33,547 nt of DNA from Rugosibacter sp. (GTDB taxonomy: Bacteria; Pseudomonadota; Gammaproteobacteria; Burkholderiales; Rhodocyclaceae), in NCBI GenBank assembly GCA_011620215.1, contig WOZP01000204.1:1-33547 (forward strand), in the 5' to 3' direction. The notes under the pieces were generated by a model that worked only from the letters and a program-made list of their open reading frames with translations, was not told where the DNA came from and searched no databases. Positions 23,841-26,219 of the stretch are shown here, piece by piece. The position numbers were made by a program, and so were the translations under genes. Every line of letters starts with the position of its first letter. Within the stretch, counting starts at the first letter, position 1.

Positions 23841-23896
23841 TTGCACTCTGTGTGTATCGGCGTTGGGGCATCGCCCTAGTTCCGGTCAGAGTGCAA
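23841..23896. repeat. 56-nt inverted-repeat structure downstream of the DUF2062 gene
   Basis: TTGCACTCTG at 23841-23850 pairs perfectly with CAGAGTGCAA at 23887-23896. The spacer contains a smaller GGCG/CGCC stem. There is no U-run on either side, so it is not a standard terminator. No known RNA family was recognised. The rest of 23825-23985 shows no gene. Confidence 0.5.
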
Positions 23897-23985
23897 ATCC
23901 CAATCTACTAAAGCACCTCGCATTAACCCATTGTTTTTTACTGGCTAGTGCGTTTTCCGACAGAAAAAATGTTGTTTTCAGCAAA

Positions 23986-24235
23986 CATATGATCCTGGAA
24001 ACCTCAGTTGGAAGCGCCCGATGGTGCGTTTGGGCGGCTGGTTGGCGCGAAGCGACGACGCGGCAGGCTCATGCCTGCAAGGAGGAGCGACAAAGCCAGA
24101 CGGCCGTCCGGACGTGCCAGCGGGCGCTTAGCGGACTCACCTGATTGGTGAGGGTCGAAAAAGCGGGAAAGTTCAATATTCATCAGTGATTCAACGAAGT
24201 CGGAAGTGGTCAACTGAGGTTTCCAGGATCATATG
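23986..24235. mobile_element. MITE-like element with perfect 25-bp terminal inverted repeats
   Basis: The left end (23986-24010, CATATGATCCTGGAAACCTC...) and right end (24211-24235) are perfect 25-bp reverse complements. The outermost six bases, CATATG, are themselves palindromic and could instead be a target duplication, leaving a 238-bp element with 19-bp ends. The interior is rich in palindromes: GCAGGC-TCAT-GCCTGC, GACGGCCGTC, CGTCCGGACG, CTCACC-TGATT-GGTGAG and a long-range AAGCGCCCG/CGGGCGCTT pair. It encodes no transposase; the 69-codon frame at 24004-24213 (-) is not recognised. The parent element was not identified. Confidence 0.75.
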
Positions 24236-24414
24236 AGTCTGGTGATTTTTTGAGCCTGATTGGCCTTTCCACGAAATGAAAGAGCCGCTATACGGCCAAG
24301 CCGTTCGCGTAATCTGTTGAAATTCTGAAAGTTTGAATTCTTGTGATCGACCACCATGTCGACGACACCCCTATCAATTTGTAGGTATTTTGGGTACTTG
24401 AAGGTGACTTCCAT
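24229..24414 (-). pseudogene. short unrecognised ORF ending in the MITE-like terminal repeat
   Basis: A 61-codon frame (MEVTFKYPKYLQIDRG...) divergent from abiEi, whose stop codon TGA is supplied by the CATATGATCC end of the MITE-like element. It may be the remains of a gene truncated by that insertion, or not a gene at all. No family match is recognised. Its putative start lies next to the abiE control region. The rest of 24236-24435 holds nothing else that I can support. Confidence 0.25.
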
Positions 24415-24476: not shown

Positions 24477-25034
24477 ATGACCAAAATCGAACTTATCCGC
24501 AAACTCTCTGAGCTCGATCGACGAGGGATCTATGTGCTGGCACGCCGGGACATCGAAAAGTTGTTCCCAGACGAGGGTGAAAAGTCCATGGAAAAGTCGC
24601 TGCAACGGATGGTGTCCAACGGCCTCTTGCAGCGGGTCGCCAAGGGCCTCTACGTGAACCCGGCCGCGACGAGCAAGAACCGCTGGCTGACGGAGGAGAT
24701 CGCCAAGGCTCTACGCCCTGGGTGCCTCTCGTATGTCAGTTTGGAGTCCATCTTGTCAGAGTATGGAGTCATCTCGCAGATCCCGATCAGCAGGATGACA
24801 GTGATGACGACCGGACGAAGCGGGGTCCACAACACCCCCTTCGGGACCATCGAGTTCACCCACACCAAGCGGGCGCGCTCGGAGATCCTTGGGAGGACGC
24901 TTGCGCCCAAGGGTCGACCGCTTCGCATCGCCACTCGATCAGCGGCTGTCCGCGACCTCTTGCGCGTGGGGCGCAATGCCAACATGCTCATCGATGACGA
25001 GCTCGAAGACGAATCAGAGGTGGAAACGACATGA
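24477..25034 (+). CDS. abiEi: AbiEi-type antitoxin/transcriptional repressor (type IV TA)
   Basis: A 185-residue protein whose N-terminal part (residues ~1-65, RGIYVLARRDIEKLF...SLQRMVSNGLLQRVAKGLYVNP) is a winged helix ending in the 'kGlY' motif of AbiEi antitoxins. The rest (LSYVSLESILSEYGVISQIP, FGTIEFTHTKRA) matches the AbiEi C-terminal domain pattern. It should oppose the AbiEii toxin without a stable protein complex and repress its own promoter, as known for the family. ATGA overlap with abiEii. Start choice: the ATG lies directly after the operator region. Confidence 0.82.
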   Translation: MTKIELIRKLSELDRRGIYVLARRDIEKLFPDEGEKSMEKSLQRMVSNGLLQRVAKGLYVNPAATSKNRWLTEEIAKALRPGCLSYVSLESILSEYGVISQIPISRMTVMTTGRSGVHNTPFGTIEFTHTKRARSEILGRTLAPKGRPLRIATRSAAVRDLLRVGRNANMLIDDELEDESEVETT

Positions 25035-26032
25035 GCGAAAGACAAGACTTCGAGAAGCTGGTCAACCAGGCTATGTCTAATCCCGCCTTATCAGCGATGC
25101 GCCCGGTGGTGGAGAAGGAGCTGCTCCACTACGAGATATTCCAAGCGCTCGACGGCGAAGGCTTGCTCAAAGACTTGGTGTTTCAAGGCGGCACGGCCCT
25201 GCGCCTATGCCGTGGCTCCGACAGGTTCAGCGAGGATCTCGATTTTGCCGGCGGCATCGATTTCAGGGCCGACAAGATGGTCCAAATCAAAGACTGCATC
25301 GAGAAGAGCATTGGAGATCGCTTCGGATTGACGGTCACAGTGAAGCCCAAGCTGGCCAAGGCCGGAGTGGGCCGGGTGAAGGTGGACAAATGGTGGATCT
25401 CGATAGAGACATCCCCTGAAAATCCGGCCATGCCGAGCCAAAAAATCAAGATGGAGATCGCCAATATTCCGGCCCACACCCGGGAACTGATGCCGCTGCG
25501 AGCCAACTACGATTCGGTGCAAGCCATGCCGACAGTCCTTGTCAACACCGAGTCTCTCGACGAAATCATGGCAGACAAGATCCTCGCCTTCCCTACCTCG
25601 TTGAGAGACAGCCAAGGCCGAGCGGCAGGGCTCGACTCGAGCAAAATCCGCCACCGCGACATTTGGGATTTAGCTTGGCTGTCCGCGAGAGGCGCCAAGC
25701 TCGATCCCAATCTGGTAGCCCTAAAGATCGAGGACTATGGCGTCAGTGGCTACGATGACCTGCTTGGCGAAGCAGTCGAGCGACTTCCCGCCATCGTAAA
25801 CAGCCCGGAGTTCACGGCCCAGATGACGCGATTCATTGACTCTGCCACAACATCCAAGACTTTGGACAAGGAAGGGTATCTGGACTATTTGTCGACCTCG
25901 GTTGGGGAGCTTTTCTCGACGATGAGGTCGGAGCTTGCGTCCGCGCTACAAGCCATCCAAAGCCATGCCGTGGCATCCACGGCTGCCGCGCCCAAGGTCA
26001 AGCGCAAACAAACGCCAGATTTGTCGATATGA
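25031..26032 (+). CDS. abiEii: AbiEii/AbiGii nucleotidyltransferase toxin
   Basis: A 333-residue type IV toxin of the DNA polymerase beta-like nucleotidyltransferase superfamily. Visible motifs are FQGGTALRLCRG (residues ~51-62), SEDLDFAGG (Ser67, Asp69, Asp71, putative metal ligands), DEIMADKILAF (conserved Lys) and RHRDIWDLAWL (motif IV Asp). Characterised relatives block growth by nucleotidyl transfer, reported for tRNA in some members; the target here is unknown. All motifs look intact, so the toxin is probably active. It overlaps abiEi by 4 nt and a tiny downstream ORF by 4 nt. Confidence 0.9.
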   Translation: MSERQDFEKLVNQAMSNPALSAMRPVVEKELLHYEIFQALDGEGLLKDLVFQGGTALRLCRGSDRFSEDLDFAGGIDFRADKMVQIKDCIEKSIGDRFGLTVTVKPKLAKAGVGRVKVDKWWISIETSPENPAMPSQKIKMEIANIPAHTRELMPLRANYDSVQAMPTVLVNTESLDEIMADKILAFPTSLRDSQGRAAGLDSSKIRHRDIWDLAWLSARGAKLDPNLVALKIEDYGVSGYDDLLGEAVERLPAIVNSPEFTAQMTRFIDSATTSKTLDKEGYLDYLSTSVGELFSTMRSELASALQAIQSHAVASTAAAPKVKRKQTPDLSI

Positions 26033-26164: not shown

Positions 26165-26219
26165 CCAGAAATATCAACAGATTAAGCGAACGGCTTGGCT
26201 ATACGCAGCCCTTTTTATT

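Follow-up and report, generated by a model that had tools for sequence, protein, structure and literature searches.

The segment at positions 23986 to 24235 of the window (the whole 33,547-nucleotide stretch of DNA that was analysed) raises the question of whether a short, strongly palindromic sequence is a mobile element or a fixed structured region, and of what its palindromes serve. The sequence-only reading had described a 250-bp element with perfect 25-bp inverted ends and nested palindromes. Both descriptions held on closer analysis. The arms at 23986-24010 and 24211-24235, 25 nt each with 200 nt between them, are 100% complementary, and there is no second perfect inverted pair of 25 nt at a spacing of up to 2 kb in the window. 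The nested palindromes are made up of inner arms (24012-24046/24095-24129, 74%), a tip that is rich in GC and the hairpin CTCACC...GGTGAG. Judged against 88 copies found elsewhere, the mobile unit proper is narrower than the 250-bp segment: it spans 23993-24228, with 18-bp perfect ends on a 236-bp unit and an interior open reading frame that has no coding match. The outermost CATA/TATG is flanking sequence outside this unit. It had been suggested that CATATG was the target duplication; the motif is present on both sides, but 75 of the 88 collected copies show an identical 3-bp TNA duplication instead. In the window copy this duplication is mismatched (TGA vs TCA). The unit was oriented by its more stable (sense) fold, and its limits are as follows:

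23993-24228, + strand: mobile unit (MITE), TCCTGG...CCAGGA, 236 bp, delimited by comparing 88 copies and their duplications
23993-24010, + strand: left terminal inverted repeat, TCCTGGAAACCTCAGTTG
24211-24228, - strand: right terminal inverted repeat, reading CAACTGAGGTTTCCAGGA on the + strand
23990-23992: left 3-bp TNA target copy, TGA, where the empty site predicts TCA
24229-24231: right 3-bp TNA target copy, TCA

An empty site was sought in sister genomes, as had been proposed, and was found in G007. In this genome the same neighbours (a DUF2062 gene and an ABC transporter) enclose a type II CRISPR array, cas2, cas1 and cas9; the array has 36-nt repeats with a 66-bp period. The window retains one CRISPR repeat and the sequence behind it. 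G007, which is 82% identical to the window at this place, has the empty site CATCAAAACAGA-TCA-TATTGATCCGGTGATTTTTT, compared to the filled site CAGCAAACATA-TGA(element)TCA-TATGAGTCTGGTGATTTTTT of the window, so the element inserted into a TCA target within the last codons of the former cas2. The two differences between ACAGATCA and ACATATGA each extend the palindrome; they could be arm-templated mutation or ordinary divergence. The other cas sequence is gone from the window, and an AbiEi-like/AbiEii pair stands in its place, in agreement with the earlier claim that a toxin-antitoxin locus adjoins the element:

23879-23914, + strand: single remaining CRISPR repeat by the insertion site, the 36-nt repeat of G007
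24477-26032, + strand: toxin-antitoxin pair of AbiEi-like (24477-25034) and AbiEii (25031-26032) genes, AbiEii E 3e-29

The AbiEi_4 and DUF6088 matches to the AbiEi-like gene are below their cut-offs. The divergent open reading frame that the element had been thought to cut short does not support that idea: it is 61 aa long (24229-24414, - strand) without a Pfam match, and the bases beside the element on this side are the former cas2 3' end in another frame. Positions 23879-23914 and 24229-24252 are what is left of a type II CRISPR-cas locus, namely one repeat and the cas2 3' end. A pair of 30-bp inverted repeats (93%) at 24295-24324 and 26170-26199 flanks the AbiE pair, as though this module had itself come in as a transferable cassette in place of the cas genes.

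The ends were also searched against the element's own genome (G000, 220 contigs), where they are not single-copy: two further copies are present, both broken off at contig ends and 96% and 100% identical to the window element over the parts seen. The exact 19-bp end is present in 64 GTDB contigs, mostly from Beta- and Gammaproteobacteria (Thiobacillus, Dechloromonas, Azonexus, Nitrosomonas, Sulfuricella, Gallionella), and many of these ends are paired, 219-224 bp apart. The TNA duplication is identical in 20 of 20 copies examined in the complete genome G027. The 75 duplications comprise TGA (31), TCA (25), TAA (10) and TTA (9), counts that are to be read with the relatedness of copies inside one genome in mind, and the symmetrised target consensus is ATNAT, which is palindromic. 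No match to the element was obtained among plasmids and IMG/VR viral contigs. The 236-bp element is a non-autonomous cut-and-paste element (MITE): it is shorter than 500 bp, has inverted ends, a target duplication, multiple copies and an empty site, and carries no transposase gene. The initial view of a MITE-like element without transposase is supported by copies in its own genome, relatives elsewhere and the empty site in the sister genome. The family is widespread and apparently undescribed; within open full texts, the scope of our literature check, the end sequence was not found and core fragments matched unrelated papers only.

The interior of the element folds into a hairpin that covaries, is specific to one strand and carries conserved tandem G.A pairs; this hairpin is absent from Rfam. 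The + strand folds at -142.9 kcal/mol, compared to a shuffle mean of -85.3 (sd 4.8; z -12; 0 of 200 shuffles as good), and the - strand at -111.1 kcal/mol (z -9.6). One fold is common to 37 full-length relatives with a median pairwise identity of 62% (minimum 48%), and compensatory (double) changes occur in 34 of 56 pairs in 36 aligned sequences. The + strand is the more stable one in 34 of the 37 relatives (mean -16.4 kcal/mol; Wilcoxon p 2e-7), and by our own count the G.U and A.C cells of the pair table stand at about 7:1. The hairpins of the window copy are:

24012-24129, + strand: large conserved internal hairpin with compensatory changes
24036-24108, + strand: core hairpin module (model R2) with tandem G.A/A.G mismatches, common to MITEs with other ends; R2 match E 1.6e-14
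24136-24152, + strand: small conserved hairpin CTCACC...GGTGAG

Within the innermost 74 positions (24036-24108 in the window), the tandem G.A/A.G mismatch is present in 35/40 and 39/40 sequences, and the pair flanking it switches between C-G (25) and G-C (12). A second step in the core alternates between tandem G.A and Watson-Crick pairs. For the core structure, all five covariation measures lie above 500 of 500 shuffles. With Rfam covariance models the window element had no match at E <= 1, and four weak, below-cut-off matches to microRNA families in related loci all fall outside the elements.

The core is not confined to elements with these ends. R2, a covariance model of the core hairpin used at a cut-off of E <= 1e-5, detected it in 72 of the 399 Pseudomonadota genomes sampled, including genomes beyond the class, with more than 100 matches in G375. 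A second model, R1, rewards any palindrome; its matches below about 60 bits (such as L183 and L184) were discounted because R1 gives up to about 49 bits to the antisense strand of such palindromes as well. Among 44 distinct sequences with strong R2 matches, most of them outside the R2 training set, both G.A steps are present in 39, and CAAGGC is likewise present in 39. Most inspected R2 loci are MITEs with other ends (TAGGGCCTGTTGACATT..., CTAGTGTGGTGTTTCAG..., TAGTGCCCTGTCTCGCAA..., AGAACCTATTTCAGTAG..., CTAGTGTCCTTTAACGCAAG..., GGGAAGGTCTGCACGAATCC...), and in many R2-bearing MITEs of 264-272 bp two cores stand head to head. The loci L191, L193, L221, L222, L234 and L239 hold 264-295-bp MITEs with two head-to-head cores and mostly TAGGGCCTGTT-type ends; the ends of an IS5-like IS in G002 match this two-core group. 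The more than 100 core hairpins of G375 (e.g. L218) occupy one 3.9-Mb genome and belong to at least two element types.

The search for a full-length IS sharing these ends, as suggested by the sequence-only reading, recovered none from the genomes and contigs covered. Autonomous IS with ATCCTGGAAACCTCAGTTG ends (end pairs at IS-like distances) were not found in the 64 contigs and 5 genomes, and the inverted ends around PF01609 and PF13340 transposases included none of the element's type. A missing autonomous partner does not exclude a MITE, because type II MITEs have little beyond their ends in common with an IS (PMC10969869). The sole direct link to a transposase is the IS5-like IS of G002 (L248), 910 bp long with DUF4096 and DDE_Tnp_1, whose ends TAGAGTCTGTTGGCATTGAT / TAGGGCCTGTTGACAATCAG match one sister class of hairpin MITEs with ends other than those of the window element. 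The 3-bp TNA duplication is known for the IS1031 group of the IS5 family, and the element shares it; an IS with ATCCTGGAAACCTCAGTTG ends was not found in the genomes and contigs searched. Because of the TNA duplication and the IS5-like IS that shares its ends with a sister hairpin MITE, we infer that a DDE transposase of IS5 type probably acts in trans on the ends.

Other known systems were compared as well. Correia (NEMIS) and ERIC elements are likewise short and non-autonomous, with inverted ends and folding transcripts that can affect mRNA. These elements duplicate TA, whereas the present element has a TNA duplication and unrelated ends, which led us to reject membership, as well as a conserved tandem-G.A core. 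With REP/RAYT systems it has palindromic hairpins, strand asymmetry and many copies in common, but its long inverted ends and fixed 3-bp duplication are as in DDE transposition, and this assignment was also rejected, since REP/RAYT repeats are single hairpins with a tetranucleotide that have neither inverted ends nor a duplication. An integron attC site was dropped because of the 3-bp duplication. The Chunjie MITE of Geobacter uraniireducens (Genetics 2008;179:2291, as described in PMC10969869) is 178-235 bp long, and by that description the element resembles it in size, inverted ends, direct repeats and many copies; the title of the Chunjie paper also reports operon insertion without disturbed structure (PMC10969869). 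As far as that description goes, Chunjie has one operon insertion, in contrast to the many junction insertions with rebuilt stop, start and GAGG described below.

To examine the insertion targets, the pre-insertion site was rebuilt for each copy, and we asked if the target ended a long coding frame as its stop codon and if a further frame began at an ATG, GTG or TTG overlapping the target, with genes for the junction and orientation counts called by a home-made gene caller. The target is a stop codon in 26 of 75 copies (3.8% of random TNA sites), overlaps a start codon in 35 (13% of random sites) and is both, a stop/start overlap, in 18 (0.5%). When only the ATGA context is considered, 17 of 44 insertions hit a stop/start pair, compared to 1.2% of 2220 background ATGA sites (p 1e-21). 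The window copy itself is not at a gene junction. Junctions with Pfam or NCBIfam matches include:

L145: rsmH / ftsL
L144: FKBP isomerase (fkpB) / ispH
L140: starch-synthase-like gene / folA
L049: radical-SAM gene / acpS
L032: histidine kinase / response regulator

Each TNA is a stop codon (TGA or TAA) on one strand, and therefore the duplication always restores the stop codon that was hit. The junction sequences are exact (...TGA-TCC...CTGAGGTTTCCAGG-ATG...): at ATGA junctions the upstream stop is kept by the duplicated TGA, and the downstream ATG is rebuilt from the element's terminal A plus TG. The right end contains GAGG(T), a putative Shine-Dalgarno sequence in copies at operon junctions, which stands 7-8 nt (about 8) before the rebuilt ATG, the standard Shine-Dalgarno spacing. 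From these sequences we infer that insertion at a stop/start overlap would be transparent to translation. The genes ftsL and ispH are generally essential, and since insertions survive before them, the downstream gene is presumably translated. The downstream gene would gain a new ribosome-binding site, making junction insertions tolerable. Pairing of the two element ends in the mRNA would mask the GAGG; a ribosome terminating at TGA would cover about nine bases at the start of the left arm, as judged from known ribosome footprints, and could thereby open the stem, so that the freed GAGG would keep translational coupling. Initiation dependent on upstream translation has been described for natural gene pairs (PMC6728339).

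The junction enrichment might instead reflect target preference and purifying selection only, with the GAGG and the terminal A coincidental and without a role. The palindromic ATNAT consensus itself includes ATGA, and selection removes insertions inside genes, both as expected from such an account. It is harder to reconcile with the excess of true stop/start pairs over the ATGA background, with the retention of GAGG and the terminal A in most end variants, and with the translation of ftsL and ispH, which must be possible despite the insertion before them; we therefore regard it as doubtful, though to be taken seriously.

The question of what the hairpin serves was approached through its orientation and distribution. 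Of the copies at gene junctions, 31 have the stable strand antisense to the genes and 12 have it sense (p 0.005, uncorrected), a distribution that speaks against that strand acting in cis within host mRNA. A single-stranded-DNA function with replication-strand bias gained no support, as none was seen in four genomes (25 leading, 24 lagging). Duplications are intact in short derivatives that lack the core, and movement therefore does not strictly depend on it. Because the stable strand is mostly antisense to operon genes, we suppose with low confidence that the hairpin may act for the elements, in their mobilisation or as an RNA working in trans, and not for the host operon. A role of the core in cis on the mRNA, whether as insulator, stabiliser or RNase III site, as has been proposed for Correia/ERIC, would agree with its RNA-like G.U bias and tandem G.A, and RNase III or RNase E is known to cut Correia and ERIC MITE transcripts (PMC10969869), but the 31 to 12 antisense excess makes it rather unlikely. 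Another possibility is that the core is a separate mobile repeat (REP/RAYT-like) inserted into different MITEs, since the same core occurs within elements of unrelated ends, sometimes twice head to head. However, the stem runs outward from the core with covariation and without sequence conservation, so that no insertion boundary is seen, and a target duplication around the core was not noticed; this explanation is improbable. The strong, covarying, strand-specific and RNA-like fold would also suit an immobile feature of this locus, either a structured RNA gene or a regulatory region, but such a feature is refuted by the copies at unrelated loci with target duplications and by the sister genome with its empty site, which leaves it next to no probability.

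We consider it quite probable, taking the results together, that the element is a trans-mobilised MITE with an ATNAT target, tolerated stop/start insertions with coupling, and a shared hairpin that may serve the element. A wider proposal is offered tentatively, as possible but not favoured: the tandem-G.A hairpin may be a common functional module of unrelated mini-transposons, perhaps a recognition or regulatory RNA for several IS5-type transposases, and the ends of one lineage may make stop/start insertion invisible to translation, with the end-to-end stem as a coupling switch. The proposed strategy, to use a target that holds a stop codon, to duplicate it and to bring along a ribosome-binding site and start codon, would explain in concrete terms how mobile DNA can spread through compact genomes rich in operons, including insertions between rsmH and ftsL or ahead of ispH. 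The shared hairpin suggests a common functional RNA or DNA part in many bacterial MITEs, opens the long-standing question of why MITEs conserve their folds to direct testing, and defines a class for annotation that applies to about a fifth of the Pseudomonadota genomes sampled.

Some further elements vary in their interior or ends. Those at L047:6950, L057:7623, L055, L068, L069 and L050 have the same ends and follow the TNA rule with quite different interiors, which include REP-like hairpins such as GTAGGTGCGAATTCATTCGCAC. In L130, L131 and L138 one end is partly duplicated in tandem, or the interior is larger (448 bp, L138), suggesting aberrant transposition or slippage.
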